Source: Streptomyces antarcticus (GTDB lineage: Bacteria > Actinomycetota > Actinomycetes > Streptomycetales > Streptomycetaceae). From it: a stretch of 64,000 nt of DNA. The position numbers were made by a program, and so were the translations under genes. The stretch's first letter is position 1; each line of letters begins with the position of its first letter. This document shows, in pieces, positions 28,489 to 61,225 of the stretch. The notes beneath the pieces are model-generated. The model did not search any database. It was not told the origin of the DNA and saw only the letters and a program-made list of their open reading frames with translations. The DNA lies in assembly GCF_026627255.1 (NCBI RefSeq), contig NZ_JAPNLM010000003.1:1-64000 (forward strand), given 5' to 3'.

Positions 28489-29232
28489 TCAGTATTCCCT
28501 GAGTAGGCGGCCGACGCCTGTGATGCGGTCGTCGAGGCCGTGCTCGCGCAGGGCGTGCCACAGCGTGGCCGTGTTGATGGCGACGACCGGTTTGCCGAGT
28601 TCGGATTCGAGGGCGTCGGCTTGGGAGACGAAGGAGAGGTTCGTTCCGACCTGGACGATCGCCTCGACGGAAGGGTCGTCGAGTTCGAGGACCATCTCCC
28701 GGATGCGGGGCGGCCCGACGCGGGCAATGTCCAGGGCGCTCGGGCAGCGCAGCCCGGAGACGGCCGATACGTCGAATCCGGCTTCGGCGAAGAATCGCTT
28801 CACTTCGCGGTCGGCGACGGGCTGGTAGGGAGAGAAGACGGCGATGCGTCGGCATCCGAGCGCATGCAGTGCTGCGCGGCAGGAGCTAGCACCGGTGGTG
28901 ACCGGCAGCCCCGTCCGTTCGCGGAGTCGCTGTTCGAAGGCGGCGTTTCCTGCGACACCGCCCCAGAAGGTCTCCGCTGACATCCCCATCACCATTCGGT
29001 CCGGCTCGGCTGTCAGGACATCACGGACCGCCGTGTCGAGCGAGGTTCTGATCTGGGCCAGCAGGGCTTGGAAGTCGTGGTCGCTGTCCATCGAGGGGTG
29101 CGCGATGTGCATCGACCCGGCGCGATAGGTGACACCGGGGATTCGCGCTGCCCAATAGTCATGCTCGACGACGGTGTTGGTGCTCGGCACGATGACACCG
29201 AAGACGGCTCGGGGACCGACGGCATTGGTCAT
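28489..29232 (-). CDS. Maleate isomerase/Asp-Glu racemase superfamily protein A
   Basis: A 247-residue protein of the Asp/Glu racemase, maleate isomerase and arylmalonate decarboxylase superfamily. It starts with the family N-terminus (FGVIVPSTNTVVEHDY) and has VMGMSAETFWGG and VQVGTNLSFVSQAD where the two active-site loops should be. Neither loop has a cysteine (Ser85 and Val195 occupy the usual region), while the paralogue at 40629 keeps one (VQCGTNLS). A two-cysteine isomerase mechanism is thus excluded. The ATG at 29232 is the only start near the fold's first strand; the frame remains open far upstream by chance. Confidence 0.8.
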   Translation of the reverse strand: MTNAVGPRAVFGVIVPSTNTVVEHDYWAARIPGVTYRAGSMHIAHPSMDSDHDFQALLAQIRTSLDTAVRDVLTAEPDRMVMGMSAETFWGGVAGNAAFEQRLRERTGLPVTTGASSCRAALHALGCRRIAVFSPYQPVADREVKRFFAEAGFDVSAVSGLRCPSALDIARVGPPRIREMVLELDDPSVEAIVQVGTNLSFVSQADALESELGKPVVAINTATLWHALREHGLDDRITGVGRLLREY

Positions 29233-29636
29233 TTCGGGCTCTCCAGTCCGGGGCGGGGGGATGTGGTCAAGGCGTCCGGTGCTGTCGGTGCCGATCGTGG
29301 CGCCCGACCCCGATGGACTGCCCGCGCTGCGGCGGGCGGGTCGTTGCCGACGGTGAGGCCGCCCGCCGGGTATCCCCGGCAGGGCCGTCGCCGAACTGCT
29401 GCTCGGTGCGACGGGCGCGTAGCTGGGGAAACCCGCCCCCTTCGGCCTGGGTGGCGCCGCCGACGCGGTGTTGTGCCGGGAGGAATATGAGGCAGCATGT
29501 CCGCGCTTGCTGGGCAGCCGCAGGTCCGAGGAGCGGAACGACAGGGTGGCACTCCTGACGTGGCGGCAATCGGGTTCACGCATGTTTCGGTCTGTGAAAC
29601 TATGTTTCGCAAACCTAGAAGAAGGTCGTCGGGCCG
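29233..29636. promoter_or_regulatory. Intergenic region with a cluster operator
   Basis: About 400 bases with no credible gene lie upstream of racemase-like gene A. At 29596-29608 the 13-mer GAAAC-TA-TGTTTC is a near-perfect match to the palindrome repeated across the downstream catabolic cluster, and a further GTTTC half-site lies at 29584-29588. Confidence 0.6.
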
Positions 29637-30983
29637 TCAACTGACACCCGGCGTCGGCGCCATCAGGGGCCGGGAGACGGCCGTGCGGACCCGCTCGCGC
29701 CGAAGCTCTTTGAGGTAGCTCAGGGCGTCGACCTGGATGGTGTGGCGGGTAGAGGCGACGTAGCGCCGTGCCGTCTGCCTGCGGTACGTGGCGATCTCGC
29801 GGTGCATGGCGCCCTGCGGGGGCAGGGCGCAGCGTCCTTGGAGGAGGTCGGCGACCCAGTGGGACTGTGCCTCCGCCAGCGGCATGATCGCGCCGAGCGG
29901 CTGGACCAGGCCGATGAAGTACAGGCCCTGGTGATCGGGTGCGGCGACGCGGCGGTAGAGGCTCACCGCGTTGCCGGCGGGGTCGATCAGGTCCTTCGGG
30001 AGGAAGGGGAAGGCGATGTCGTACCCCGTGCAGTAGATCACCGCGTCGATCTCCTCCCTGTGGCCGTCCTCGAAGAGGGCGCTTCCCCCGTCGAGTGCGC
30101 TGATCATCGGCGTCACGGTGATGTCGCCGTGCCCGAGGCGTGAGAGCAGGTCGTCGGAGATGGTGGGGTGGGCTCCGAGCACGCCGTGGCGCGGTTCGGG
30201 CAGGCCGTAGGCGGAGAGTCTGCCGCGGCTGAGCCGCAGGAGGGCGGCCAGGCCGCGGGCCTGCACGGGCAGGGGTGCCCGGGCGAGCCAGGAACCGGTG
30301 AGGTGGTCGGTGGGGGAGCCGAACAGGTACTTGGGCAGGATGTGCGCGCCACGGCGCATAGTGAGAAGGGTGCGGGCGGAGACGCGAGAGGTTTCCACGG
30401 CGATGTCGCACGCCGAGTTGCCGATGCCGAGGACGAGAACGCGCGCTCCCGTGAAGGGCTCTGGAGTGCGGTAGTGGTGGGAGTGCGTCTGGATGCCCGT
30501 GAAGGAGTCCGCTCCGGGCAGCGCCGGGCACGGCATCCGTGGTTTCCAGTGGTGTCCGTTGGCGACGAGGACCGCGTCGTAGATCCCGGTGGTCACGGCT
30601 CCGTCGTCCCGCCGGCGGGCGGTGACCTCCCAGCTGCCGCCGGAGGACTTTGCCACACCGGTCACATCGGTGCGGAAGGCGATCGAGGGGCGCAGGTCGA
30701 AGTGGTCGACGAAAGCGTCGAAGTAGCGGGCGATGTCGAAATGGCTCGGGTAGACCGGGTAAGTCTTCGACATGGGGAAGCACGCGTACTCCATCACCTG
30801 GCGGGAGGTGTTGATGTGGAGCGAGCGGTAGGCGGAGGACATGCCGTTGTCGTTCAGGTAGCGCCAGTTGCCGCCGACCTGCGACCCGCTCTCGTAGCAG
30901 TCGTAGGCGATGCCGCGTTCGGCGAGCACCTGGCAGGCGGCGATGCCGGAGGAGCCGGCTCCGATGACGCAGACACGTTCCAT
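29637..30983 (-). CDS. Flavin-containing monooxygenase (FMO family)
   Basis: A 448-residue class B flavoprotein. The FAD motif is VIGAGSSGIAACQVLAERG, the FMO fingerprint F-x-G-x3-H-x3-Y is met by FTGIQTHSHHY, and the NADPH motif is VLGIGNSACDIAVE. Such enzymes hydroxylate heteroatoms or carry out Baeyer-Villiger oxidation of ketones. The start at 30983 (MERVCVIGAGSS) is set by AGGGAGGTCCGC upstream and by the family's usual N-terminus. A 36-bp operator-like palindrome lies just upstream at 30995. It is divergent from the GMC oxidoreductase gene. Confidence 0.9.
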   Translation of the reverse strand: MERVCVIGAGSSGIAACQVLAERGIAYDCYESGSQVGGNWRYLNDNGMSSAYRSLHINTSRQVMEYACFPMSKTYPVYPSHFDIARYFDAFVDHFDLRPSIAFRTDVTGVAKSSGGSWEVTARRRDDGAVTTGIYDAVLVANGHHWKPRMPCPALPGADSFTGIQTHSHHYRTPEPFTGARVLVLGIGNSACDIAVETSRVSARTLLTMRRGAHILPKYLFGSPTDHLTGSWLARAPLPVQARGLAALLRLSRGRLSAYGLPEPRHGVLGAHPTISDDLLSRLGHGDITVTPMISALDGGSALFEDGHREEIDAVIYCTGYDIAFPFLPKDLIDPAGNAVSLYRRVAAPDHQGLYFIGLVQPLGAIMPLAEAQSHWVADLLQGRCALPPQGAMHREIATYRRQTARRYVASTRHTIQVDALSYLKELRRERVRTAVSRPLMAPTPGVS

Positions 30984-30994
30984 GCGGACCTCCC

Positions 30995-31030
30995 TTGTGA
31001 CCACCCGGTCACGTGACCGGGTGGTCACAA
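30995..31030. promoter_or_regulatory. Perfect 36-bp palindromic operator
   Basis: TTGTGACCACCCGGTCAC at 30995-31012 is followed immediately by its exact reverse complement to 31030. It lies 12 bases upstream of the FMO start, over its likely ribosome-binding site or promoter. The inner core TGACC-N4-GGTCA is shared with the palindrome at 31142. Confidence 0.85.
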
Positions 31031-31141: not shown

Positions 31142-31185
31142 CACACTATGACCGGGCGGTCACGTGACCGCCCGGTCATAGTGTG
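31142..31185. promoter_or_regulatory. Perfect 44-bp palindromic operator
   Basis: The 22 bases from 31142 (CACACTATGACC, then GGGCGGTCAC) are followed by their exact reverse complement to 31185. It has the same GGTCAC-GTGACC centre as the palindrome at 30995. It lies about 60 bases before the GMC oxidoreductase start, so the two palindromes bracket the divergent promoter region. They look like sites for one dimeric or tetrameric repressor, most often TetR-type. Confidence 0.85.
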
Positions 31186-31243: not shown

Positions 31244-33049
31244 ATGCCCACCTCTTCACCACCGAAAGCCGCTTCACCCAGGAATGGCCCGCCGCCCGCC
31301 GCCCCGCCCGACGACGTCGACGTGCTCGTCATCGGCTCCGGATTCGGCGGGAGCGTCACAGCCCTGCGCCTGGCCGAGAAGGGCTACCGCGTCGCCGTCC
31401 TGGAGGCCGGCCGCCGCTTCGCGGACGACGACTTCCCTCGTACCTCGTGGCGCGTGCGCGACTACCTCTTCGCCCCACGCCTCGGCTGTCGAGGCATCCT
31501 CCGTATGACCTTGCTGGGCAGGGTCCTGGTGCTCACCGGAGCGGGTGTCGGAGGCGGCTCCCTCGGCTACGCCAACACCCTCTACGACCCGCCGCCGCCG
31601 TTCTACGAGGGAACCCGCTGGGCGTCCATCACCGACTGGCGCACCGAACTCGCCCCGTACTACGACCAGGCCCGCCGCATGCTCGGTGTCACCCCGAACC
31701 CCCGCGTCACCCCCTCCGACCGCGTACTGAAGGACGCTGCGCGGGCTATGGGACGCGAAGACACCTTTCGCCCCACCCCCGTGGGCGTTCACTTCGGGCC
31801 GCCCGGCGCCGCACCCGGAACGACCGTCCCCGACCCGTACTTCGGCGGCGCCGGGCCTGACCGCAGTGCCTGCCTGCACTGCGGGGCCTGCATGACGGGC
31901 TGCCGCCACAACGCCAAGAACACCCTGCCCAAGAACTACCTCGGCCTTGCCGAAGCCGCCGGCGCGACCGTCATCCCCGAACGCACCGTCACCGACTGCC
32001 GCCCGAACGGCGCCGGAACCGGCGCGCACCCCGGCTGGACAGTCACCTCCGTACGCACCGGACGCGCCCTGCGCCGCGACCCCCGCACCACCACCGCACA
32101 ACACGTCGTCTTCGCCGCCGGAGCCCTCGGCACCCAGCGCCTGCTGCACCGGCTACGCGCCGACGGCGTGCTGCCCCGCCTCTCCCCGCGCCTGGGCCAC
32201 CTGACCCGGACGAACTCCGAGGCCATCTTGGCCGTGCGCTCCAAGGACCCTGACGCAGATTTCACCCACGGCGTGGCCATCACCTCCTCCGTGCAGCTGG
32301 ACGACGACACCCACGTGGAGCCCGTCCGCTACGGCCCCGGCAGCAACCTCCTCGCTCTGCTGGGCGCGACGCTGACCGACCCGGTCCCGGGCCGCCCCCG
32401 GCTCATGGCCGGTCTCGCCGCGATGGCCGCGAACGCCCGCAGTCTGCCCGCCCTGCACCGCCCCCGCCGCTGGGCCACCCAGTCGGTGGTCCTGCTGGTC
32501 ATGCAATCCGTGGACAACTCCCTCACCACCCATCTCCGCCGCGGCCTGCTCGGACCCCGCCTGACCAGCCGGCCCGGCGAAGGCGCGCCCAACCCCACCT
32601 GGATCCCGGCCGGCCACCGCCTGGCCCGTACCGCCGCCCGGCAGAACGACGCACTGGCCTGCGGCACCTGGGGCGACCTGCTCGACATACCCGCCACCGG
32701 CCACCTCATCGGCGGCTGCACCATCGCCGCCGACGCCGAGCACGGGGTCGTCGACCCTTACCACCGCGTCCACGGACACCCCGGGCTGCACATCATCGAC
32801 GGCTCCACCATCTCGGCCAACCTCGGTGTGAACCCCTCCCTCACCATCACCGCCCTCGCCGAACGGGCCACAGCCCTGTGGCCCAACCACGGCGCCACCG
32901 ACCCCCGCCCCCGGCCCGGCGCACCCTACTGCCGGGTGGACCCCGTCCCGCCGCGCCACCCCGCCGTCCCCGCGCACGCTCCCGCCGCACTGCGCCTGGG
33001 TCCCCGACCACCCGAAGGGCAGGACACCGATGCCGACGTACCCGCCTGA
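31244..33049 (+). CDS. GMC-family FAD oxidoreductase
   Basis: A 601-residue flavoprotein of the glucose-methanol-choline/cholesterol oxidase type. The FAD site is DVLVIGSGFGGSVTALRLAE and the C-terminal flavin-capping motif is GLHIIDGSTISANLGVNPSL. A cysteine cluster (SACLHCGACMTGCRHNAKN) resembles that of GMC proteins that need an extra metal or structural centre. Such enzymes oxidise alcohols or sterols. The start at 31244 (MPTSSPPKAAS) follows the operator palindrome. Its 3' end overlaps the next gene by 20 bases. Role in the cluster is probably oxidation of an alcohol. Confidence 0.88.
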   Translation: MPTSSPPKAASPRNGPPPAAPPDDVDVLVIGSGFGGSVTALRLAEKGYRVAVLEAGRRFADDDFPRTSWRVRDYLFAPRLGCRGILRMTLLGRVLVLTGAGVGGGSLGYANTLYDPPPPFYEGTRWASITDWRTELAPYYDQARRMLGVTPNPRVTPSDRVLKDAARAMGREDTFRPTPVGVHFGPPGAAPGTTVPDPYFGGAGPDRSACLHCGACMTGCRHNAKNTLPKNYLGLAEAAGATVIPERTVTDCRPNGAGTGAHPGWTVTSVRTGRALRRDPRTTTAQHVVFAAGALGTQRLLHRLRADGVLPRLSPRLGHLTRTNSEAILAVRSKDPDADFTHGVAITSSVQLDDDTHVEPVRYGPGSNLLALLGATLTDPVPGRPRLMAGLAAMAANARSLPALHRPRRWATQSVVLLVMQSVDNSLTTHLRRGLLGPRLTSRPGEGAPNPTWIPAGHRLARTAARQNDALACGTWGDLLDIPATGHLIGGCTIAADAEHGVVDPYHRVHGHPGLHIIDGSTISANLGVNPSLTITALAERATALWPNHGATDPRPRPGAPYCRVDPVPPRHPAVPAHAPAALRLGPRPPEGQDTDADVPA

Positions 33050-33671
33050 ACCCTGGCACCTCGCCGGGCAGATGTACCTCTCCCTATGGCCCGTACCGCG
33101 CCGCGCCCTGCCGCCCCTGCCGCCGGGAGTGCGGCCCCTCACCCTCGCCGGCCGGGCCCTGATGGGCGCCGCCTGGGTCCTCTACGAGAACGACAGCGTC
33201 CTGCGCTACAACGAGGTCCTCTCGGCGGTCCTGGTCCGCGACGGCCTGCGGCCGCGGGTCACCATCACCGACATCTGGGTGGACAGCCCCCCGTCGATGG
33301 CCGGAGGACGCGAACTGTGGGGGATCCCGAAAGAGCTGGCCGCATTCGACGTCAGCCGGGACAAGGGCTTTGACGCCTCTGCCCGCACCGGATCCACGGC
33401 GCTGTGCACCGCGTCCTTCCGCCCCCTGACCAGCCTCCCGGGGCGGTGGCCGGTGGCCTACCGCGTCACTCAGCTCCTGGACGGACACCTCAAGACCAGC
33501 CCCGTGCGCAGCCGCAGCACCGTGGGCCTGGCCCGCGCGACCTGGCAGATCCCGCCAGGCAGCCCCCTGCGGCTCCCGGCAGACCGCCCACCGCTGCTCA
33601 GCCTCACCCTGCACGACTTCACCCTCAGCTTCGGCAGCCCTGCCCCGACCCCGTCCGCCCGCACCGTCTGA
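33030..33671 (+). CDS. Acetoacetate decarboxylase-like protein
   Basis: A 213-residue member of the acetoacetate decarboxylase superfamily. The recognisable region is DIWVDSPPSMAGGRELWGIP followed by KELAAF, whose Lys is in the position of the Schiff-base lysine of the family (ELWGIPK). Members include decarboxylases, aldolases and dehydratases, so the reaction is uncertain. The ATG at 33030 overlaps the GMC gene end, indicating co-translation. It is followed by the acyl-CoA synthetase gene after 63 bases. Confidence 0.8.
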   Translation: MPTYPPEPWHLAGQMYLSLWPVPRRALPPLPPGVRPLTLAGRALMGAAWVLYENDSVLRYNEVLSAVLVRDGLRPRVTITDIWVDSPPSMAGGRELWGIPKELAAFDVSRDKGFDASARTGSTALCTASFRPLTSLPGRWPVAYRVTQLLDGHLKTSPVRSRSTVGLARATWQIPPGSPLRLPADRPPLLSLTLHDFTLSFGSPAPTPSARTV

Positions 33672-33734: not shown

Positions 33735-35528
33735 ATGACACCCACGCCCGATCCGCCAGCCACCCTCTGCGAGGCCTTCCAGCGGACCGTTGCCGCCCGG
33801 CCACAGGAACCCGCCCTCCTCACCCTCGCGGGCACCGCGCTGACCTGGGCCCAGTACGCAGAACGCGTGGCCTCCGTCGCCGCAGCGCTGCGCCACCTCG
33901 GTGTCCGCCGGGGCGAGCCGGTTGCCCTGATGCTCACCAACCGGCCCGAGTTCCACGTCGCCGACTGCGCCGCCCTGCACCTGGGTGCTGTCCCGTTCTC
34001 CCTCTACAACAGCCTGCCCGCCGATCAGATACACGACCTGCTCGCCAACACCGCGGCCCGGCTGGTCGTCACCGAACGCCGCTTCCTGCCGGTACTCCAT
34101 GCCGCCGCAGCCGGAACCTCAGTCCGGTACCTCGTGACCGTGGACCACGCTGATCAAACACCGGAGGAGGGCGTCCTCACCCTTGAGGAAGCCGAGGCGA
34201 GGGCCCCCCGCCCCTTCGAACTCGCTGCCGCCTTGGACTGCGTGGGGCCCGACGATCTCGTGACCCTGATCCACACCTCGGGCACCACAGGCCGCCCCAA
34301 GGCCGTCGAGATCACCCACCGCGCCATGCTGAGCCAACTCTCGGGCAGCCAGCAGGTGCTGAAGGTCACCGACCAGGACAGCCACATCTCCTTCCTGCCC
34401 GCGGCCCACATCGCCGACCGGTGGGGCTCCCATTACACCAACCTCCTCTGCGGAACCCGACTGACCTGCCTGGACGACATCACCCGGCTGCCCGAGGCGC
34501 TCGCCCTCGTGCGGCCGACGCTCTTCGGAGCCGTCCCCTCCGTCTGGCAGCGCATGCGCACCACGCTGGAAGGGGCCCTCGCCGAAGCCGACCCCGGGCT
34601 CCGCGCCCTCGCCGAGGAGGCCCTTGCCACCGGACGGCGCCACGCCCCCCGCCGGTGGAACGGCGTCCTCACCCAGGCCGAGCGCAAGGAACTCGACGGG
34701 GCCGACGCCGTCCTCGCCGAACTGCGTCGCCGCGTCGGTCTTGACCGAGCCCGGGTCTGTATCACGGGGGCCGCGCCCGCACCTCAAGGTCTCCAGGAGT
34801 TCTTTCACGCCCTCGGGCTGCCGCTCACCGACGCCTGGGGAATGTCCGAGCTCAGCGGTATCGCCCTGATCGCCCCGCCCGGAATGCCGCGGCCCGGCAC
34901 TGTGGGCCGGCCGGTCCCCGGCGCGGAGATCAGGATCGCCGACGACGGCGAACTCCTCGTACGGGCGCCCTTCCTGATGCGCGGCTACCGCGGTGAGCCG
35001 GAGCTCACCGCGCGGACCATCGACGCGGCAGGCTGGCTGCACACCGGTGACCTCGCCGCCGTCGACGCCCAAGGAGACGTCCGGATCATCGACCGGAAGA
35101 AGGACCTCATCATCAATACCGGAGGCCAGAACATGGCCCCCGCCCGCATCGAAGGGGTCCTGAGGGAATCCACGCCCCTGATCGCCCACGCCGTCGTCAT
35201 CGGCGACGGCCGACCCTACAACGTCGCCCTCCTGGTCCCTGACCGGGAGGCAGTCACCGCTTGGGCCAGGCGAACGGGCATCGCAACGGCGGCGCCCTGG
35301 GACACCCACGGCGCCGAACTCGCCGCCGCGTTCGCCGGGGCTGTCGCCGACGCCAACACCCGCCTTTCGCGAGCCGAGCGGATCCGCGTCCACGAGGTGA
35401 TCACCGACGAGTGGGCGCCCGGTGGACCGGAGCTCACCGTGACGCTGAAGGTCCGGCGGGCCGCCGTCACCGGCCGGTACGCCGACCTGGTCGAGACCTT
35501 GTACCGGCGCGGGGCGCCGGACCGGTGA
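33735..35528 (+). CDS. Long-chain fatty acyl-CoA synthetase (AMP-binding)
   Basis: A 597-residue FadD-type enzyme activating a carboxylic acid to its CoA ester with ATP. The AMP-binding motif is LIHTSGTTGRPKAVEITHRA, the A5 motif is DAWGMSELSG, and the C-terminal A8/A10-type motif IDRKKDLIINTGGQNMAPAR is intact. The substrate is likely a long or branched fatty acid. In a chlorophyll-catabolic setting phytenic acid from phytol would fit. The stop overlaps the next gene's GTG start. AGGAGCCTGT provides the ribosome-binding site. Confidence 0.92.
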   Translation: MTPTPDPPATLCEAFQRTVAARPQEPALLTLAGTALTWAQYAERVASVAAALRHLGVRRGEPVALMLTNRPEFHVADCAALHLGAVPFSLYNSLPADQIHDLLANTAARLVVTERRFLPVLHAAAAGTSVRYLVTVDHADQTPEEGVLTLEEAEARAPRPFELAAALDCVGPDDLVTLIHTSGTTGRPKAVEITHRAMLSQLSGSQQVLKVTDQDSHISFLPAAHIADRWGSHYTNLLCGTRLTCLDDITRLPEALALVRPTLFGAVPSVWQRMRTTLEGALAEADPGLRALAEEALATGRRHAPRRWNGVLTQAERKELDGADAVLAELRRRVGLDRARVCITGAAPAPQGLQEFFHALGLPLTDAWGMSELSGIALIAPPGMPRPGTVGRPVPGAEIRIADDGELLVRAPFLMRGYRGEPELTARTIDAAGWLHTGDLAAVDAQGDVRIIDRKKDLIINTGGQNMAPARIEGVLRESTPLIAHAVVIGDGRPYNVALLVPDREAVTAWARRTGIATAAPWDTHGAELAAAFAGAVADANTRLSRAERIRVHEVITDEWAPGGPELTVTLKVRRAAVTGRYADLVETLYRRGAPDR

Positions 35529-36166: not shown

Positions 36167-36187
36167 ACGTTTCACTGAAAGAAACGT
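36167..36187. promoter_or_regulatory. GAAACGT inverted repeat operator
   Basis: ACGTTTC at 36167-36173 and GAAACGT at 36181-36187 form a perfect inverted repeat with seven bases between. It lies upstream of the secreted hydrolase at 36272. The half-site GAAAC is the same as in the other cluster operators, though the arrangement differs. Confidence 0.6.
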
Positions 36188-37989: not shown

Positions 37990-38034
37990 ACCGGAACCAC
38001 CTTCACGTGCGGAGGTCTCGCTCAGCTATTTACA

Positions 38035-38061
38035 GGAAACAATGTTCCGTCTAGAGAAACA
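38035..38061. promoter_or_regulatory. Cluster operator with CTAG core
   Basis: GGAAACA-A-TGTTCC at 38035-38048 is followed by GTCTAGAGAAACA, giving three alternating half-sites. It matches the consensus of the cluster-wide palindrome and is centred about 25 bases before the secreted hydrolase start at 38074. Confidence 0.75.
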
Positions 38062-38073
38062 AAACTCACGCCA

Positions 38074-49490: not shown

Positions 49491-49493
49491 TGG

Positions 49494-54085: not shown

Positions 54086-55365
54086 TGGCTCTCTCCGAGC
54101 GTAGCGAACAGCGCGTTCTCCTGCGCATCGGTGGCGATCTTCGCCGCCTCCAGGCGGCCACGCTCGGCGGGGAAGGTCATCACGAGGCCCATGGCCAGGT
54201 CGCGCAGGGTGCGGCCGATGACGCCGTCCAACCGTGCCTCTGAGGTGCCAGACGCCTTCAGGGCGCCCAGGGCGACGCCGAAGCAGGCCTCGGTGACCGC
54301 GCCCTTGCCCAGCCGCCACTGGCTGAACACCTCTGACTTGGGCCTGATCGGGGGCTCGGAGGTCTCCAGTTCGAGCTGGCGCCGCAGCCACTGGTAGGCG
54401 GTCTCCAGGTTTTGGGTCATGTCCCCGATGAGGACCTGGTGCATGGGGGAAGAGGCGATGGGCCGGCCGGTGTCGGCGAAGGTCTTCCTGGTCAGCAGGT
54501 CCAGCGTGTAGTCGTAGACGGCCTGTGCGGCGCCGGTGTAGACGGCTGCGATGGCGAGCTGATTGCCCACGAAGCTGCCGCGGCTTACCTGGAGCATGCG
54601 CGTGAAGGCCCCCGGCACGGTCAGGGCGTCGCGGTCGGCGACGAAGACCTCGTCGAGCCGGATGCCGTGGTTGGCGCTGCCGCGCATGCCGAGGCCGTTC
54701 CAGTGCGGGCGGGAGGACACCCCGGCGGCGTCGCGCGGCACGAGGAACATGGCCAGGCCGTCCGCGGTCTGCGTCTTCTCCAGCCGGGCGGTGACCAGGT
54801 AGATGTCGGCGACTCCGGTCGCGCAGCCGAAGGACTTCTCACCGGTGAGGACCCAGCCGCCCTCGGTACGGGCGGCTGTGGTCGCAATGGATATGTTCGC
54901 GGCGGCGCTCTTGGCTGACTCGCTGGCGAAGTTGGCGAGCCAGGAGCCTGCCGCCATCGTGGTCAGGACCCGCTCGGCGAAGGCGGTGACGGCGGGCGTC
55001 TCCTCCTGGGTGAACAGGCCCGCGCGGATGGCCTCCAGGGGCAGCAGACCGCGCGAGGCACTGGTGTTGTGGAAGAAGAAGGCGAGCGCCGTGGAGGGGC
55101 AGGCAGTGCCCATGGCGTAGGTGGCTGCCGCGAGGTCGCGCAGACCGCCCCCGATCCCGCCGTACTTCTCGGGCACGACGAGCCCGAGCAGGCCGGCCTC
55201 TCGCAGCAGCCCGGTGTGACCCGCCGGGAAGGCGGCCTGCGCATCGGCGTCGGCGGCCGCCGCCCGCAGGGCAGGCAGTACGGATTCGACGCGCTCGGCG
55301 CGGGCCCGCTCGGCCGGCGTCATGCGGTCGACGAGGTGCGCGCCCGTGAGTTGCTGCGTGGTCAT
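54082..55365 (-). CDS. Acyl-CoA dehydrogenase-fold flavoprotein, probably a monooxygenase
   Basis: A 427-residue protein with the acyl-CoA dehydrogenase fold (LLGLVVPEKYGGIGGGLRDL; GWVLTGEKSFGCATGVADIY). The catalytic Glu region of true acyl-CoA dehydrogenases is not evident; the C-terminal part reads WRLGKGAVTEACFGVALGAL. The same fold is used by group D flavin monooxygenases (DszC/HpaB type), which receive reduced flavin from a separate reductase, and the next gene upstream encodes a flavin reductase domain. I therefore favour a two-component monooxygenase. ATG at 55365 (MTTQQLTGAHL) after AAGGAGTCCACGCCG. Coupled to the ALDH downstream. Confidence 0.78.
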   Translation of the reverse strand: MTTQQLTGAHLVDRMTPAERARAERVESVLPALRAAAADADAQAAFPAGHTGLLREAGLLGLVVPEKYGGIGGGLRDLAAATYAMGTACPSTALAFFFHNTSASRGLLPLEAIRAGLFTQEETPAVTAFAERVLTTMAAGSWLANFASESAKSAAANISIATTAARTEGGWVLTGEKSFGCATGVADIYLVTARLEKTQTADGLAMFLVPRDAAGVSSRPHWNGLGMRGSANHGIRLDEVFVADRDALTVPGAFTRMLQVSRGSFVGNQLAIAAVYTGAAQAVYDYTLDLLTRKTFADTGRPIASSPMHQVLIGDMTQNLETAYQWLRRQLELETSEPPIRPKSEVFSQWRLGKGAVTEACFGVALGALKASGTSEARLDGVIGRTLRDLAMGLVMTFPAERGRLEAAKIATDAQENALFATLGESQ

Positions 55366-55378: not shown

Positions 55379-56680
55379 TTACTGGGATTCCGGGCCGCGG
55401 GAGGCGGCTGCCCGGGCGGGGGAGCAGGGGGCGGGCGCGGCGGGCGGTTGCCTTCGCAGCACACCCAGTTCGGCGCGCAGGGCCCGTACCGCGGCGATGT
55501 CCAGGGGGGCCGCGACGCCCATGCGGGAGCAAAGCAGTACGAGCCGCTCGGTGGCCAGCAGGCCGCCGTGGCCGCCGAGGGTGGTGTCGAAGCACCTGAC
55601 CCCGCTTTTCATCCCGGTCAGGGCGTTGACCAGGCCGAGGCCGTGGTCGTCGCGCAGCGCGAGGCGCAGGGGGACGGGCCCGGCCGCGGGGATCGCGTCC
55701 TGGAGCAGTCGGCGCAGTGCCAAAGGTGATGCTCCGTCCGCATCGTCGTGGCCCTCTGCGGGTTCCTCCAGGACGATCTCCCCGCAGCCGGCGGCGGCCA
55801 GCCGCTGCACGGTCAGCAGGCCGGCGCGGGCCGCCCCCGGGCGCAGCGCGTCGCGTATCCGGGCGACCACGAGGGTGTCCGGGTGCCCGGCGCCGTTGAC
55901 CGCCCGGACCGCGTGGACGGCCTCCCCGCCGGTACCGTCCGGTGCGACGGTGAGCTCGACGGCGGGGCAGCCGGCCTCGGCGGCGGCGACGGCGGCCGAG
56001 GCGTTGTCGACGTGGACCGAGGAGCAGCTCATACCGGCGGCCCCGGCGCCGGCCGTTCCTGCGCCGTCGAGCGATGTGAGGCGCACCCGTACGCCCGCCC
56101 GCCGCAGCGCGTGGGTCAGGCGAGCGATGTGCGGCGCTGCCACCGCGTCGGTCAGGCCGGTGTCGGCCAGGTCCACGCGGTCGGGGAGCGGATCCGCGAG
56201 CTGCCCCCAGGAGCGCGAGTGGAACAGCAGCGGGGAGGTGATGCGCGGTACTCCCGCTGCCACCACCTCACCCAGGAAGATGGAGTGGTCCCCGCCGGGG
56301 TAGCGGTGCAGGACGCGGCAGTCGACCCAGGCCGCCGAGTCCGTCAGCACGGGACTGCCGGTGGCGCCGGGCAGCCAGTCGCCCGCCGCGAAGCGATCGG
56401 TGACCCCCGGCTCCATGCCCGCGAACCTGCGTCCCAGTGCGAGGTGGTCCCGGCCCAAAACGTTGACGGCGAACACCCCGTTGCGTATGAGGAGATCGTG
56501 GGAGCGGATCCCCTGGTCCAAGCAGACCAGGACGAGAGGTGGTGCGAGGCTGACGCTGCTGAACGAGCTCGCCGTCATGCCGTGCCAGCCCTCCTCGCCG
56601 GCCGTGGTGACGATCCCCACGCCGCTGGGCCACCGGGACAGCACCTGACGGAAGGTCGATTCGTCGATGACGGTCGTCAT
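55379..56680 (-). CDS. Flavin reductase fused to an HMG-CoA lyase-like TIM barrel
   Basis: A 433-residue fusion. Residues 1-165 are a flavin reductase-like FMN-binding split barrel (PSGVGIVTTAGEEGWHGMTA and SSFSSVSLAPPLVLVCLDQG; GDHSIFLGEVVAAG). Residues about 170-415 resemble the pyruvate carboxyltransferase/HMG-CoA lyase TIM barrel (LRLALRDDHGLGLVNALTGM; GVRCFDTTLGGHGGLLATE) but lack the N-terminal RDGxQ motif. The reductase part can supply reduced flavin to the acyl-CoA dehydrogenase-fold protein encoded next. The lyase-like part may be catalytic or only structural. Start at the ATG 56680; TTG at 56695 is an alternative. First gene of its operon. Confidence 0.75.
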   Translation of the reverse strand: MTTVIDESTFRQVLSRWPSGVGIVTTAGEEGWHGMTASSFSSVSLAPPLVLVCLDQGIRSHDLLIRNGVFAVNVLGRDHLALGRRFAGMEPGVTDRFAAGDWLPGATGSPVLTDSAAWVDCRVLHRYPGGDHSIFLGEVVAAGVPRITSPLLFHSRSWGQLADPLPDRVDLADTGLTDAVAAPHIARLTHALRRAGVRVRLTSLDGAGTAGAGAAGMSCSSVHVDNASAAVAAAEAGCPAVELTVAPDGTGGEAVHAVRAVNGAGHPDTLVVARIRDALRPGAARAGLLTVQRLAAAGCGEIVLEEPAEGHDDADGASPLALRRLLQDAIPAAGPVPLRLALRDDHGLGLVNALTGMKSGVRCFDTTLGGHGGLLATERLVLLCSRMGVAAPLDIAAVRALRAELGVLRRQPPAAPAPCSPARAAASRGPESQ

Positions 56681-56701
56681 CGCACCCCCGCTCAATTATG
56701 T

Positions 56702-56725
56702 TTCCTCTAGTGGAACACTGTATCC
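56702..56725. promoter_or_regulatory. Cluster operator before flavin-reductase operon
   Basis: TTCCTCTAGTGGAACACTG at 56702-56720 and GGAACAC-TGTATCC at 56712-56725 match the CTAG-containing cluster operator, in the divergent region between the flavin reductase fusion and the IclR gene. Confidence 0.75.
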
Positions 56726-56784
56726 ATGAGCGTAACGACGGTCGCGTCGCGGTGTCAACGAATCCACCCGCCTCGGGATCACTG

Positions 56785-56799
56785 TTTCCCCTGGGGAAA
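56785..56799. promoter_or_regulatory. IclR self-operator candidate
   Basis: TTTCCCC-T-GGGGAAA is a perfect 15-bp palindrome with a central T. It lies 64 bases before the IclR start at 56863. Its TTTCC/GGAAA halves are the same as in the other cluster operators, suggesting autoregulation. Confidence 0.65.
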
Positions 56800-56862
56800 T
56801 CGACGTTATGCTTTTGCCAAGTCGGGGGACGGCCTCGAAACCATCGCGCAAAAGGGGCACCT

Positions 56863-57651
56863 GTGACCGAGGAGACGAGCAGCAGCAGGTCCATCGCCGC
56901 AGTCGAGCGCGCCATGGACGTGCTGCTGATGTTCGGCCGCAGCGGCCGCCCCGACCTCGGTGTCACCGAGATCGCCCAAGAACTGGACATCACCAAGGCC
57001 GCCGTGCACCGCGTCCTCACGGCCCTGCGCAACCGCGACCTGATCATCACGGATCCCGTCACCCGCCGCTACGCCCTCGGACCGGCCGCCATCTCCCTCG
57101 GCCGCGCCTACTTGGCGCGCACCGACCTGCGGGTCCTCGCGGCCCCGGAGCTGCGCCGGCTCGCCGCCCAATGCGGGGAGACCGCCACCCTCTCCATCCG
57201 CCGCGGCGACACCAGGCTCTACGTCGACCAGGTCGTCCCCGAGCAGGAGCTGCGTATGGAGGTGGCCCTCGGGATCCCGCTCCCCCTGCACGCGGGCAGC
57301 TCCTCCAAGGCCTTCCTCGCCTTCCTGTCCGACGCCGAGATCGAGACCTACCTCGAACGCCACCCCCTGGACGCGGTCACCGACCGGACCATCACCGACC
57401 CCGAGCGCATGCGCAAGGAGCTGTCCGCCATCAAGCGGCGCGGCTACGCCATGTCGGTGGGGGAGCGGCAGAGCGGTTCAGCCTCGCTCGCCGCGCCCGT
57501 CTTCGGACACGACGGCCATGTCATCGCGGTGGTCAGCCTGGCCGGCCCGCAGTCCCGGTTCAAGCCGCGCCTGGCCGAGTGCGCCCCGCTGCTGATGGCG
57601 AGCGTCGAACGGCTCTCGGCCGAGTTCGGGTACCGGCCAGGGGTCCGGTGA
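56863..57651 (+). CDS. IclR-family transcriptional regulator, likely cluster regulator
   Basis: A 262-residue IclR protein. The winged helix-turn-helix is at about 8-70 (IAAVERAMDVLLMFGRSGRP; LDITKAAVHRVLTALRNRDL). The IclR effector-binding domain follows (RLAAQCGETATLSIRRGDTR; GIPLPLHAGSSSKAFLAFLS; RRGYAMSVGERQSGSASLAA). GTG at 56863 with AAAAGGGGCACCT upstream is the start; the longer reading is not conserved. It lies inside the cluster next to two operator palindromes, so it is the best candidate for binding the repeated GAAACA-N-TGTTTC sites and sensing a pathway intermediate. Confidence 0.88.
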   Translation: MTEETSSSRSIAAVERAMDVLLMFGRSGRPDLGVTEIAQELDITKAAVHRVLTALRNRDLIITDPVTRRYALGPAAISLGRAYLARTDLRVLAAPELRRLAAQCGETATLSIRRGDTRLYVDQVVPEQELRMEVALGIPLPLHAGSSSKAFLAFLSDAEIETYLERHPLDAVTDRTITDPERMRKELSAIKRRGYAMSVGERQSGSASLAAPVFGHDGHVIAVVSLAGPQSRFKPRLAECAPLLMASVERLSAEFGYRPGVR

Positions 57652-57657
57652 CCCGCC

Positions 57658-58353
57658 TCAGAGGTCGGCCCCGGGCTTGAGCACCCCCAGCGCCGCGGCG
57701 GCCAGGACGCACGTCCAGATCCCCGCCACGTACGGGACACAGCCGTTGACCGCCCGACGCAGCGTCCGCTCGACCCCGTCGCCTCCTCCCGAGCCCGCCA
57801 GGTCGCGGAACGCGGCCCCGAACGGGCGCAGCGTCAGCCGGATGCCCAGCCCGCAGGCGATCGCCGTCGCATACAGCAGGACCTTGGCGCCCAGCCAGCG
57901 GGGATCGGTCCGCACCCCGAACGGCTCCGCGGCCAGCAGGGTGTAGAGCCCGACGTCCCACAGTGAGGCCGTCAGTGCGACGCGTATCGCCCAGTCCGCT
58001 CGGCGTATCCAGGGGCGGCGGCCCGGACGGTGGTGCTCGCGCACGGTCAGCCACAGCCAGAGCGCCGCGAAAGCCCAGGTCACCCCGGCGGACCAGCCGT
58101 TGAGCAGGCGCTGCGCCCCGTGCGGCTCCAGCGCCATGAGCGTGATTCCGCTCGGCAGTATCAGCACCAGGCAGATCTTCGGGCCGAGATCCAGCACACT
58201 CATGATCGACAGCGCCGTCGAGCGGGCGGCGACGGGCAGGCCCGGCTGCAGGACGTACCGGCTGGAGACGTAGACGCCGAGGTCGCCGCCCAGCCAGAAG
58301 ACGAATAGCAGGATGTGGAGCAGGATCCACCATCCGTGCGGATGTGCTCCCAT
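57658..58353 (-). CDS. CopD-like/DUF-type membrane protein
   Basis: A 231-residue protein with about five to six helices. The first helix (GWWILLHILLFVFWLGGDLG) and LQPGLPVAARSTALSIMSVL, with regularly placed histidines and arginines, resemble CopD-like proteins, some of which bind haem or copper. No soluble domain. The ATG at 58353 lies two bases after the stop of the HMG-CoA lyase-like gene, so the two are co-transcribed. Function unknown; a role in membrane redox or haem/tetrapyrrole handling is possible. Confidence 0.6.
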   Translation of the reverse strand: MGAHPHGWWILLHILLFVFWLGGDLGVYVSSRYVLQPGLPVAARSTALSIMSVLDLGPKICLVLILPSGITLMALEPHGAQRLLNGWSAGVTWAFAALWLWLTVREHHRPGRRPWIRRADWAIRVALTASLWDVGLYTLLAAEPFGVRTDPRWLGAKVLLYATAIACGLGIRLTLRPFGAAFRDLAGSGGGDGVERTLRRAVNGCVPYVAGIWTCVLAAAALGVLKPGADL

Positions 58354-58355
58354 GT

Positions 58356-59306
58356 CTACTCCTCCCCCCGCTCGCCGCTGCGCTCGGACTCGGGGAAGGG
58401 GCCTGCCCGGCCCAGCAGGGCGGGCACCTGGATGCCGAGCACGGTGCCCAGCCAGGTCCCCGCCGCAGCGGCCGATTCCAGGTCGATGCCCGGTTCCAGG
58501 CCCATCCGCCGCAGCAGGTAGACCAGGTCCTCGGTCGCGATGTTGCCGGTGGCGGCCGGGGCGAAGGGGCAGCCGCCGATGCCGCCGAGGGAGGAGTCGA
58601 GCCACGCCGCACCGGCCGCGGCGGCTGCCACCGCGTTCGCGTAGCCGGTGTTGCGCGTGTTGTGGAAGTGGCAGCGCAGGACCACTCCGGGCGCCTGTTC
58701 CCGTACCGCCGTGAGCAGCCGGGTGACCGCGTCGGGGGCGCCCACGCCGATGGTGTCGGCGAGGACGATCTCCTCGGCGCCCGACTCCGCGGCGATCCGG
58801 GCCAGTTCGGCCACGGCCGACTCCGGGGTCTCCCCCTCGAAGGGGCAGCCGAACGCCGCCGCGATGGTCAGTGAGCGCCCGATCCCCTCCGCGTGGGCGC
58901 GGGAGGCGATCCCCTCCCACGCGGCCAGCGCCTCGCGCGTGCCCATGCCCTGATTGCGGCGCGAGAACGCGTCGCTCGCCACCACCACGTAGTTGACCTC
59001 GTCCACGCCGCTCGCACTTGCCCGTTCCATGCCGCGGGCGTTGAGCACCAGGCCGCTGTAGCGAACACCGTCCGGGCGCTTGAGCAGTCCCATCACCTCC
59101 TCCGCTCCCGCCATCTGCGGCACCCGGCCGGGATGGACGAAGGCCACCGCCTCCACCCGCCGCGCGCCCGCGGCCACCGCCCGCTCGATCAGGGCCACGC
59201 GCTGCGCCGGGGACAGTGCACGCACCTCGTTCTGCAGTCCGTCACGCGGGGCCACTTCCACCACGCCGGGACCAGTGAGCGGCTTGGCCGCCAAGGAGTT
59301 GTCCAT
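58356..59306 (-). CDS. Hydroxymethylglutaryl-CoA lyase-type enzyme
   Basis: A 316-residue TIM-barrel lyase of the HMG-CoA lyase family. The RDGLQNE motif (VVEVAPRDGLQNEVRALSP) near the N-terminus, the metal-binding HFHNTRNTGYANA and the C-terminal loop GGIGGCPFAPAATGN with the catalytic Cys are intact. It cleaves a 3-hydroxy-3-methyl-type acyl-CoA to acetyl-CoA (or propionyl-CoA) and an oxo-acid. Next to a CaiB CoA-transferase, it is the likely exit of the pathway for a branched dicarboxylate. The citramalyl-CoA type reaction is an alternative. ATG at 59306. Confidence 0.9.
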   Translation of the reverse strand: MDNSLAAKPLTGPGVVEVAPRDGLQNEVRALSPAQRVALIERAVAAGARRVEAVAFVHPGRVPQMAGAEEVMGLLKRPDGVRYSGLVLNARGMERASASGVDEVNYVVVASDAFSRRNQGMGTREALAAWEGIASRAHAEGIGRSLTIAAAFGCPFEGETPESAVAELARIAAESGAEEIVLADTIGVGAPDAVTRLLTAVREQAPGVVLRCHFHNTRNTGYANAVAAAAAGAAWLDSSLGGIGGCPFAPAATGNIATEDLVYLLRRMGLEPGIDLESAAAAGTWLGTVLGIQVPALLGRAGPFPESERSGERGEE

Positions 59307-59328
59307 GCGTCATATTCTGTCGCGTCGA

Positions 59329-59366
59329 TTCCTCTAGCGAAACAGTGTTTCCCAAACTTACACTCG
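59329..59366. promoter_or_regulatory. Cluster operator, perfect 13-bp palindrome
   Basis: GAAACA-G-TGTTTC at 59339-59351 is perfect, preceded by TTCCTCTAGC and followed by CAAACTTACACTCG, the same layout as at 49494. TACACT (59359-59364) fits a -10 element placing the transcript start at about the CaiB ATG (59371). Confidence 0.85.
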
Positions 59367-59370
59367 CCGT

Positions 59371-60564
59371 ATGAGTGGACCCCTCTCCGACATCCGTGTC
59401 ATCGAGACCGGCACCCTGCTTGCCGGTCCCTTCTGCGGCCAGCTCCTCGGCGACCACGGCGCCGAGGTCATCAAGCTCGAGGACCCCGGACGCGGCGACC
59501 CCATGCGCCAGTGGGGACGCGAACGGCCCTACGGCAAGTCCCTGTGGTGGCCGGTCGTCGCACGCAACAAGAAGTCCGTCACCTGCAACCTGCGCCGCGA
59601 GGAAGGCCAAGAACTGGTCCGCCGCCTCGTCGCCCGCGCCGACGTCCTCGTGGAGAACTTCCGCCCCGGCACCCTGGAACGCTGGGGCCTCGGCTTCGAG
59701 GAGCTCCGCGCCATCAACCCCGGCCTCGTCATGGTCCGCGTCACCGGCTACGGACAGGACGGCCCGTACGCGCCCCGCGCCGGCTTCGGCTCCATCGGCG
59801 AGGCCATGGGCGGCATCCGCCACATCACCGGCGAACCCGACCGCCCCCCGTCCCGCGCCGGCATCTCGCTCGGCGACGCCCTCGCCGGCACCATGGCCGC
59901 GTACGGCGCCGTCATGGCCCTGCACGCCCGCACCCGCACCGGAACCGGCCAGATCGTCGATTCCGCGCTCTACGAAGCAGTCCTCGCCTACATGGAGTCC
60001 CTCCTCCCCGAATGGGAGGTGGGCGGCTACCAGCGCGAACGCACCGGCCCCGTCCTCCCCAACGTCGCCCCCAGCAACGTCTACCCGACCGCCGACGGAG
60101 CCGCCGTCCTCATCGCCGCCAACCAGGACACCGTCTTCCGCCGCCTCACCGAGGTCATGGACCGCGCCGACCTGGCCGAGGACCCCCGCTATGCCACGCA
60201 CACCGCGCGCGGAGCCCACCAAGGCGAGCTCGATGACGTCATCACCACCTGGACCGCCGGGCACGACGCGGCCACCCTGCTCGGCGCCCTGCACGCCGCC
60301 GGTGTCCCGGCCGGCAAGACCTTCACCGCCGCCGACATGCTCGCCGACCCGCACTTCGCCGCCCGCAACGCCATCGTCCGCCTCCCGCACCCCGACTTCG
60401 GCGAGATCCCCATGCAGAACGTCGTCCCGAAACTCTCCGGCACCCCCGGCGCCGTACGCTGGGTGGGCCCCGAACTCGGAGCCCACAACGACGAGGTGTA
60501 CGGCGACCTCCTGGGCCTCACCGGGGAAGAGCGTGAGAAGCTCACCGCGGACGGAGTGATCTGA
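59371..60564 (+). CDS. CaiB/BaiF family CoA-transferase
   Basis: A 397-residue class III CoA-transferase. Family landmarks are GTLLAGPFCGQLLGDHGAEV, VIKLEDPGRGDPMRQWG, LVENFRPGTLERWGLGFEEL and DALAGTMAAYGAVMALHART with the region of the catalytic Asp. It moves CoA between a dicarboxylate-type acid and a donor CoA ester, for example mesaconate, itaconate or citramalate. It would activate the ring-derived diacid before the lyase step. There is no clear ribosome-binding site; the promoter geometry suggests leaderless translation. The next gene follows within one base. Confidence 0.92.
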   Translation: MSGPLSDIRVIETGTLLAGPFCGQLLGDHGAEVIKLEDPGRGDPMRQWGRERPYGKSLWWPVVARNKKSVTCNLRREEGQELVRRLVARADVLVENFRPGTLERWGLGFEELRAINPGLVMVRVTGYGQDGPYAPRAGFGSIGEAMGGIRHITGEPDRPPSRAGISLGDALAGTMAAYGAVMALHARTRTGTGQIVDSALYEAVLAYMESLLPEWEVGGYQRERTGPVLPNVAPSNVYPTADGAAVLIAANQDTVFRRLTEVMDRADLAEDPRYATHTARGAHQGELDDVITTWTAGHDAATLLGALHAAGVPAGKTFTAADMLADPHFAARNAIVRLPHPDFGEIPMQNVVPKLSGTPGAVRWVGPELGAHNDEVYGDLLGLTGEEREKLTADGVI

Positions 60565-60565
60565 C

Positions 60566-61225
60566 GTGGCCGACACGCCCCTCGCCGATGACTACGAAGC
60601 CGCCGGATTCGGCCGCCGCATCGGCTGGGGCGAACACCCCGCCGTCCTCCTCGTCGACCCCGTCCAGGCCTACGCCGTCCCCGACAGCCGCCTCTACCTC
60701 GACACGGCGGAACCGGCCCTGCACGCCATGGCGCACCTCGTCCGCGCCGCCCGCCGCACCCAGTTTCCCGTCATCTTCACCGCCGTCCACTACGACAACG
60801 AACCGAGCTCCCACGCACCGCACTTCGCCCGCAAGGTGCCCAGCCTCGACGCCTTCCGCGCGGGCAACCCCCTCGCGGCCTTCACCCCGCTCTGCGCCCC
60901 GCAACCGGGTGAGATCGTCATCCACAAGCACTACCCGAGCGCCTTCTTCCAGACCCGGCTGCGCGACGTCCTCACGGTCCTCGGCGTGGACACGCTCGTC
61001 ATAGGAGGGTTCTCCACCAGCGGCTGCGTGCGGGCCACCACCTTGGACGCACTTCAGTACGGGCTGCGCCCCATCGTCGTGCGCGACGCCGTGGCCGACC
61101 GGGACACCGGTCCCCACGAGGGCAATCTCTTCGATCTCGACTCCAAGTACGCCGACGTGGTCGATGTCGGCGTGGCCTGCCGCCGCCTGGGGGACCCCGT
61201 GCACCCCCGCCCCGGGCGGATCTGA
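60566..61225 (+). CDS. Isochorismatase-fold cysteine hydrolase (maleamate amidase-like)
   Basis: A 219-residue amidase of the isochorismatase superfamily. The catalytic triad is visible: Asp31 in AVLLVDPVQAY, Lys120 in IVIHKHYPSAFF and Cys153 in GFSTSGCVRATTLDAL. Closest functional types are N-carbamoylsarcosine amidase and maleamate amidase (NicF), which releases ammonia from maleamate. With the maleate-isomerase-like proteins of the cluster this suggests a maleamate to maleate to fumarate type route for substituted compounds. GTG at 60566, directly after the CaiB stop, so the genes are coupled. Confidence 0.88.
   Translation: MADTPLADDYEAAGFGRRIGWGEHPAVLLVDPVQAYAVPDSRLYLDTAEPALHAMAHLVRAARRTQFPVIFTAVHYDNEPSSHAPHFARKVPSLDAFRAGNPLAAFTPLCAPQPGEIVIHKHYPSAFFQTRLRDVLTVLGVDTLVIGGFSTSGCVRATTLDALQYGLRPIVVRDAVADRDTGPHEGNLFDLDSKYADVVDVGVACRRLGDPVHPRPGRI

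Follow-up and report, generated by a model that had tools for sequence, protein, structure and literature searches.

Chlorophyll is made and degraded at a scale of 10^12 kg yearly; in plants its nonfluorescent catabolites are regarded as end products, and the further fate of chlorophyll catabolites in decay and herbivory is described as largely open (accessible part of PMC7318184). The gene cluster of Streptomyces antarcticus (genome of 8.5 Mb) considered here begins at position 28489 of the window, the 64,000-nucleotide stretch of DNA that was analysed (71% G+C), and runs through about 40 open reading frames (ORFs) to approximately position 76917 of the contig. We assume that it enables the bacterium to degrade tetrapyrroles, either derived from chlorophyll or closely related to such compounds, aerobically and completely by way of substituted maleimides and a cyclic-imide exit. 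To this reading we assign a probability of about 0.58, and we infer substrate, intermediates and order of steps from computed homologies, synteny, co-occurrence and palindromes and from predicted folds. In the following, g01 to g28 denote the genes between 28489 and 61225 and e1 to e12 those of the continuation; some start positions were chosen by us.

The plant PAO/phyllobilin pathway resembles the cluster in bringing together an RCC-reductase family enzyme (RCCR), a Rieske oxygenase and esterase candidates of the alpha/beta-hydrolase type. The cluster differs in being bacterial, in the subfamily of its Rieske oxygenase and in the presence of two RCCR-type proteins together with a calycin, and it goes further, to predicted steps of ring opening, deamidation and C-C bond cleavage by lyases. 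For such late steps nicotinate catabolism offers a likeness. Alkylmaleates are handled there by the maleamate amidase NicF of Bordetella and in the dimethylmaleate/dimethylmalate branch of Eubacterium barkeri. Common to both are a maleamate-type amidohydrolase relative (g28) and the logic of a hydratase followed by a C-C lyase, whereas RCCR, cyclic-amide-hydrolase genes and CoA-transferases are additions of the cluster; orthology was compared for g28 only.

The ferredoxin-dependent bilin reductases (FDBRs) and the pre-PcyA clusters of heterotrophic bacteria (PMC10151467) share with our locus the fold superfamily, a predicted open-chain tetrapyrrole substrate and nonphotosynthetic hosts. Pre-PcyA clusters, however, hold genes for haem oxygenase, V4R, Fe-S and globin proteins, none of which was seen among the annotated genes here, and the accessible part of PMC10151467 contains no RCCR-Rieske catabolic cluster. 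Some bacterial sequences (Schekmanbacteria) are already grouped there with the RCCR outgroup, and some actinobacterial homologues are named 'red chlorophyll catabolite reductase' in public records, so that the occurrence of RCCR-like sequences in bacteria is in itself no novelty. Bacterial homologues of Staygreen, a Mg-dechelatase, are likewise plant-type chlorophyll-breakdown enzymes in nonphotosynthetic bacteria, although the enzyme is a different one; the accessible part of PMC8531759 terms their physiological relevance unknown. While the families of the present cluster are known singly, no described counterpart of their combination as a system was seen among the best-listed open-licence PubMed Central papers, some of the queries being narrower.

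An earlier, sequence-only reading of this DNA had taken two proteins for relatives of plant RCCR, and both ORFs are found where it placed them, on the minus strand. RCCR1 (g17) reached 51.1 bits in a search with the PF06405 profile (cut-off 24.9); in a search over the entire genome the value was 50.8 bits, and none of 14 control genomes gave a match. The RCCR1 profile matched Arabidopsis RCCR (3agb) with an E-value of 2.5e-17 and gtPebB (6qwq) with 9.6e-9. RCCR1 is nearer to Arabidopsis RCCR than to the solved FDBRs, and it passes the RCC_reductase profile and not the FDBR cut-off. The second protein, RCCR2 (g14), remained below the PF06405 cut-off (17 bits, E = 0.0035) and is therefore classed as a relative with RCCR fold, not as a family member. 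The resemblance of the fold stood: the predicted structure (pLDDT 93.7) has the RCCR/FDBR fold with Arabidopsis RCCR as best Foldseek match (1.8e-11), and RCCR2 also recovers RCCR1 in profile comparison. Two residues of Arabidopsis RCCR, E154 and D291, which we take to be catalytic, were mapped by us from alignments. The position of D291 (D234 in RCCR1) is occupied by aspartate in 62/62 RCCR1 and 80/80 RCCR2 rows; that of E154 holds alanine in 61/62 RCCR1 rows and aspartate in 80/80 RCCR2 rows. A third protein, g13, has the predicted structure of a double calycin, the halves of which are similar to nitrobindin, CpeS and CpeT among others. This assignment rests on the predicted fold because a sequence search of the PDB gave a single match at chance level (E = 1.6).

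The gene for the Rieske oxygenase g15 sits between those of RCCR1 and RCCR2, an arrangement conserved in relatives, and the protein has both the CxH-CxxH and the D-X2-H-X4-H motif. A contig scan with RCCR1 yielded 14 named loci, namely five of Streptomyces, four of Dactylosporangium and five of metagenome-assembled genomes (MAGs) of Actinomycetota/Acidimicrobiales (RCCR1 identity of the latter 46-49%). RCCR1, Rieske oxygenase and RCCR2 occur together in all 14, in all eight larger genomes of the class (G345, which has no g13 match, G379, G513, G529, G574, G581, G619 and G635), in G877 and G915 and, with duplicated RCCRs, in the small genomes G296, G323 and G371 of the actinobacterial family f7. 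In G356, another small f7 genome, the RCCR1 contig measures only 3.6 kb. G122, which falls in the same genus, and G877 are not independent of the named loci L005 and L014. Of 394 class genomes, 15 contain RCCR1, and the identical 15 contain RCCR2; RCCR1 was also found in 3 of 293 genomes of the order-level sample (one match weak, 1.7e-4) and in 3 of 396 of the phylum sample, the own genome being counted in all three. G340 and G383 (86% and 60% complete) have only divergent RCCR1 matches (28-30% identity), so that the pair appears there in the form of RCCR2-type genes and remote paralogues. Occurrence in these samples is rare and patchy, and the core of the cluster is, judged from the conserved trio and the occurrence of RCCR1 and RCCR2 in the same genomes, inherited as a unit. 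Exit enzymes are conserved beside many of the cores. Plasmid-borne spread was considered and dropped, as none of 72,556 plasmid records (near-own records possibly left out) matched RCCR1.

Additional RCCR-type genes were observed in two groups. Members of f7 (genomes of 1.0-1.7 Mb) have many RCCR-family genes, some of them beside CN_hydrolase, FAD monooxygenase, aldehyde dehydrogenase (ALDH) and NMT1-like genes; in G323 the RCCR1 protein has four matches and the RCCR2 profile five, and as one place is common to both, the total is eight places. At the f28 loci L052, L053, L055 and L057 another RCCR, the third there and a divergent one (30-33% identity), is encoded roughly 20 kb away from the core. 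It adjoins an NAD(P)-binding epimerase-like protein in L052, L055 and L057, and fused ABC permeases of the branched-chain-amino-acid type are encoded nearby (both families shown for L057 only).

The gene list and coordinates of the sequence-only reading were borne out by ORF calls and by Pfam and NCBIfam scans. Besides RCC_reductase and Rieske oxygenase, Pfam supports three PETase/chlorophyllase-type hydrolases, three ALDHs, a GMC oxidoreductase, an SDR, an AMP-ligase, a CoA-transferase, an HMGL-like lyase, an isochorismatase-type amidohydrolase, a CN_hydrolase and an IclR regulator. Co-directional, overlapping genes had been described, and we find 15 consecutive minus-strand genes from 56680 down to 39143, several of which overlap. 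Position 61225, which had been taken for the end of the cluster, lies inside it: the continuation of the contig reaches approximately 76.9 kb with further catabolic genes.

Three members of the proposed exit route were recovered. Amidohydrolase g28 falls by sequence in the maleamate/N-carbamoylsarcosine amidohydrolase group (N-carbamoylsarcosine amidohydrolase 26st, 1e-36; 3ot4/3uao, presumably NicF maleamate amidase, 2.5e-33), and the CoA-transferase g27 and the HMG-CoA lyase g26 are supported by their family profiles (Table 1). The 'isomerase-like' label was not upheld, since g10 and its paralogue g01 resemble arylmalonate decarboxylase (AMDase) instead. Maleate cis-trans isomerase has two catalytic cysteines. 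According to our reading of the alignment, g10 keeps the second of these only and g01 neither (the catalytic-type cysteine being replaced by valine), and a maleate-isomerase function was rejected for this reason. The pair may have an isomerising or decarboxylating role; relatives of g01 are matched beside several clusters, and its chemistry is possibly different. In the tandem CN_hydrolase g18 the Glu/Cys motifs are present in the N-terminal half, and the C-terminal half is without the Cys of these motifs, its nucleophile apparently having been lost.

The continuation provides a candidate for the opening of a cyclic imide. Dihydropyrimidinase/hydantoinase enzymes hydrolyse cyclic imides, and e10 matched allantoinase, dihydropyrimidinase and dihydroorotase profiles with 7e-73 to 1e-60, none over its own cut-off among the best 25 of 51 matches, and D-hydantoinase 1nfg with 5.3e-48. 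Orthologues of e10 (46-76% identity, near full length) are present in 11 of 17 other cluster genomes (12 of 18 including the own), six of the 11 within the cluster stretches examined. The genes for MmgE/PrpD, cyclase and CaiB2 are again found close to the core in G122, G529, G574, G581, G619 and G635, and likewise at L012-L015, four of the five MAG loci (within approximately 9 kb of RCCR1); L011 gave PrpD and CitE matches only, and in the stretches examined of G345, G379, G513 and the f7 genomes the three genes were not seen. G877 gave no e10 orthologue (best match 37% identity, partial) and carries HyuB (PF02538, 2e-159) and HyuA (PF01968, 5e-89) directly after CaiB2, cyclase and PrpD. G877 thus swaps e10 for an unrelated, ATP-dependent hydantoinase, and this replacement is the best internal hint of a cyclic imide or lactam among the intermediates.

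A pathway can be proposed as follows. The first step would be the removal of phytyl or methyl ester groups by esterases, both secreted and cytosolic, with secreted neocarzinostatin-like proteins helping in pigment capture; the non-PAO Rieske oxygenase would then open or demethylate the macrocycle. No gene could be assigned with confidence to Mg removal or to ferredoxin supply. The resulting open-chain bilin would be held by the double calycin g13 while RCCR1 and RCCR2 reduce two different methine bridges. Oxidative cleavage of the bridges to substituted maleimides could be performed by the flavin monooxygenase g22/g23, by g20 and by the ALDHs. In favour of such products, hematinic acid and methyl-ethyl- or methyl-vinyl-maleimide are named in PMC7318184 as low-molecular-weight compounds to which chlorophyll oxidation leads; in that study's own leaf samples hematinic acid was found and the maleimides were not. 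On account of the PDB relatives of g22 (FAD-dependent oxidoreductases 4kcf and 3m9v, nitrososynthase 3mxl) and of the adjoining flavin reductase, g22/g23 is probably a two-component monooxygenase. The imide would be opened by the hydantoinase-type cyclic amidase e10, and ammonia released by g28 and/or the CN_hydrolase. Finally, CoA-transferases, the MmgE/PrpD hydratase and lyases of the HMG-CoA-lyase and CitE type would split the alkyl-maleates into acyl-CoA and keto acids. In its widest form, which we put forward tentatively and with some inclination to doubt, this would be the first dedicated bacterial pathway for complete aerobic chlorophyll mineralisation, with neocarzinostatin-like capture, non-PAO Rieske opening, an RCCR pair that reduces the bilin at two sites and is chaperoned by a CpeS/CpeT-like double calycin, and oxidative cutting to alkyl-maleimides, so that each of the four pyrrole rings would be recovered as carbon and ammonia; its carriers would be large-genome actinomycetes and small-genome actinobacteria with multiplied RCCRs.

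Several observations weigh against a breakdown of chlorophyll-derived pigments in this manner. The Rieske oxygenase does lie beside the RCCR-like genes, but it does not belong to the plant PAO family, with which the sequence-only reading had compared it: the PaO C-terminal domain PF08417 is not found in g15 at E ≤ 1, the PAO family is present in 0/16 cluster genomes (controls match in 2/14), and the nearest solved structures are SxtDIOX (9.7e-35), SxtT and the demethylases NdmA, NdmB and DdmC, by which a PAO orthologue is ruled out. Hydrolases with a signal-like N-terminus (g06 and g08, judged by eye) and without one (g16) are both encoded, in line with the secreted and cytosolic forms that had been stated, but the chlorophyllase label is weak, as g06, g08 and g16 all score better with PETase than with the chlorophyllase profile PF07224, which is passed by g06 only. 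Free bilins or phyllobilins could moreover be the true substrate. Phycobilins, leaf-litter phyllobilins or haem bilins would then be taken up as open-chain compounds, no macrocycle would be opened, and g15 would demethylate or hydroxylate. The use of open-chain bilins by RCCR and FDBRs, the missing PAO and the relatives of g15 fit this explanation, as does the failure to find Staygreen-type Mg-dechelatase in the 16 cluster genomes, a search that matched no control either and is hence uninformative. The g16-type hydrolase, which was matched in 11/13 cluster regions (0/5 MAG loci; one in a longer G877 stretch), better fits esterified chlorophyll-type pigments, albeit weakly, and we consider degradation of exogenous bilins unlikely, yet the most serious competitor.

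It is still less probable that the RCC-reductase fold was recruited for a substrate other than a tetrapyrrole, for example a pollutant or some natural product of pyrrolic or aromatic nature, which the cluster would degrade. RCCR1 lacks an acidic residue at the position of E154, the fold is also found in non-enzyme chains, and the remaining enzymes are mostly generic, with FMO, GMC and AMDase-like genes fitting many substrates. However, two RCCR-fold proteins share one operon with a calycin whose halves are bilin-lyase- and nitrobindin-like, and the 1.7 Mb genome G323 has eight distinct RCCR-family places. Turnover of the cell's own biliverdin from haem would agree with the relationship of RCCR to FDBR and with a haem oxygenase encoded in 10/16 cluster genomes; the haem oxygenase of S. 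antarcticus itself is located on another contig (C21), and none was found in six small f7 genomes with several RCCR-family genes (four less than 90%, two at least 93% complete), so that endogenous haem catabolism is strongly disfavoured. Tetrapyrrole catabolism is the explanation we favour, and the earlier interpretation as chlorophyll or bilin degradation is partly supported, several of its enzyme labels not having been upheld.

The stretch contains a single IclR regulator (g24), as had been noted. A shared palindrome had also been described; it is real, but there are two motifs, one IclR-type and one TetR-linked. The IclR-type motif GTTTCC-N5-GGAAAC occurs, with up to two mismatches, at 10 sites in 100 kb, near operon starts in the cluster (Markov-1 mean 1.98, maximum 5 in 40 runs). 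Within 28489-76917 all nine sites are noncoding according to our own gene table, by which 5140 of 48429 bases are noncoding; two of the nine are not independent, since the motif was derived from the IclR promoter. With up to three mismatches 15/24 sites are noncoding. The exact core TTCCNCTAGNGGAA is found genome-wide at 49494 and 56702 only, both in the cluster. With up to one mismatch it has 8 places in the genome, 3 of them in the cluster, and a reversed-pattern control has 49; the motif is thus rarer than its control, and only the exact matches are taken in favour. Five relatives show it too: an IclR-type palindrome directly precedes the IclR/g23 pair in G122, G345, G513 and G619, and g18 has one upstream in G513 and G529; four f28 genomes gave 0, 0, 1 and 1 matches per 80 kb, which is not convincing. 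From these sites the IclR regulator is predicted to control the cluster via the shared palindrome. The other motif, tandem TGACCG-N2-CGGTCA boxes, is present at the promoters of FMO and GMC and also upstream of a TetR gene that lies beyond the end of the window; in G122 this TetR gene is placed between FMO and GMC. The module of GMC, acetoacetate decarboxylase (ADC)-like protein and acyl-CoA synthetase was found in two Streptomyces genomes only, and together with its own TetR-type motif and TetR gene this makes it look like a separately controlled addition, for which a role in phytol utilisation is possible.

Table 1 Positions of genes and sequence motifs of the cluster (contig, position on the contig; FMO, GMC, ADC and acyl-CoA synthetase genes form the side module)
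Feature	Position	Strand	Evidence or remark
g01 AMDase-like paralogue	28489..29232	-	PF17645 7.9e-23; 54% identity to g10
IclR-type palindrome	29584..29600		between g02 and g01
g02 FMO-like flavoprotein, side module	29637..30983	-	PF00743 3.5e-93; start chosen by us
tandem TetR-type boxes	30998..31027		before g02; 1 mismatch each
tandem TetR-type boxes TGACCG-N2-CGGTCA	31149..31178		before g03; same as upstream of TetR gene (contig 74938)
g03 GMC oxidoreductase, side module	31244..33049	+	PF05199/PF00732; start chosen by us
g04 ADC-like protein, side module	33030..33671	+	PF06314 1.4e-17
g05 acyl-CoA synthetase, side module	33735..35528	+	PF00501 1.9e-71
IclR-type palindrome	36169..36185		before g06
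g06 PETase/chlorophyllase-type hydrolase	36272..37201	+	signal-like N-terminus; GHSMG; PETase 1.3e-15; chlorophyllase 38.5 bits (cut-off 26)
g07 partial MFS protein	37235..38077	+	PF07690, best stretch profile 189-347 of 347 only
g08 PETase/chlorophyllase-type hydrolase	38074..39060	+	signal-like N-terminus; GHSFG; PETase 8.2e-7; chlorophyllase 24.9 bits, under cut-off
g09 ALDH1	39143..40537	-	PF00171 2.5e-107
g10 AMDase-like protein	40629..41375	-	one catalytic-type Cys; PF17645 2.5e-20; AMDase 3dtv 9.2e-12; maleate isomerase 2xed 2e-11
g11 membrane protein	41376..42074	-	no family at significance; found in relatives
g12 SDR	42071..42922	-	PF00106 3.9e-35
g13 double calycin, predicted tetrapyrrole binder	42916..43890	-	predicted fold
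g14 RCCR2, remote RCC-reductase-fold protein	43887..44678	-	predicted fold; profile match to RCCR1
g15 Rieske oxygenase, VanA_C type; candidate ring-opening or demethylating oxygenase	44683..45873	-	PF00355, PF19112
g16 PETase/chlorophyllase-type hydrolase	45928..46944	-	no signal-like N-terminus; GHSAG; PETase 5.6e-8; chlorophyllase 24.5 bits (cut-off 26)
g17 RCCR1, RCC-reductase family protein	46908..47711	-	PF06405 1.4e-13, 51.1 bits
g18 CN_hydrolase (nitrilase superfamily)	47721..49490	-	PF00795 9.8e-37, 2 stretches
IclR-type palindrome	49492..49508		before g18; 3 mismatches to GTTTCC-N5-GGAAAC
g19 ALDH2	49873..51369	-	PF00171 8.6e-124
g20 FAD monooxygenase	51357..52559	-	PF01494 1.2e-57
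g21 ALDH3	52556..54022	-	PF00171 3.4e-86
g22 putative flavin monooxygenase, acyl-CoA-dehydrogenase fold	54082..55365	-	PF02770, PF08028
g23 flavin reductase	55379..56680	-	PF01613 1.2e-41; weak C-terminal HMGL-like match below cut-off
IclR-type palindrome GTTTCCTCTAGTGGAAC	56700..56716		
IclR-type palindrome	56784..56800		before g24
g24 IclR regulator	56863..57651	+	PF01614, PF09339; start chosen by us
g25 membrane protein	57658..58356	-	conserved in relatives
g26 HMG-CoA-lyase-type enzyme	58356..59306	-	NF004283, 283.1 bits (cut-off 246)
IclR-type palindrome	59327..59343		between g26 and g27
g27 CaiB-type CoA-transferase	59371..60564	+	PF02515 9e-129
g28 isochorismatase-fold amidohydrolase, candidate maleamate amidase	60566..61225	+	PF00857 5e-34
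e1 secreted-type neocarzinostatin-family protein	61377..62042	-	PF00960 35 bits (cut-off 25; longer ORF); start chosen by us
e2 second neocarzinostatin-family protein	62039..62743	-	PF00960 45.8 bits (cut-off 25; longer ORF); start chosen by us
CitE/RipC-like lyase	68628-69662 (contig)		
MmgE/PrpD	69695-71164 (contig)		
PF04199 cyclase	71161-72024 (contig)		
CaiB2, second CaiB-type CoA-transferase	72043-73272 (contig)		
e10 hydantoinase-type amidohydrolase	73439-74881 (contig)		
TetR gene	74986-75672 (contig)		
secreted-type hydrolase	75787-76917 (contig)		

The MFS ORF g07 covers only the C-terminal half of its profile and is possibly fragmentary in this genome. Between 62.7 and 66.8 kb there are genes for an ABC-like membrane protein and for more secreted proteins that match no family over cut-off. 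The secreted PF00960 proteins and their neighbours (64617-66835) recur beside RCCR clusters in some other genera, and the neocarzinostatin fold at this place suggests an undescribed role in ligand capture.

The cluster is conserved in named strains, for example in Streptomyces flavidovirens DSM 40150 and in Dactylosporangium spp., in which it would become directly testable whether microbes mineralise the carbon and nitrogen of tetrapyrroles. The cluster would give the bacterial RCC-reductase homologues a physiological setting, would bear on how plant RCCR originated and, as a source of gene markers, would help to follow the turnover of pigments in soils and lakes.

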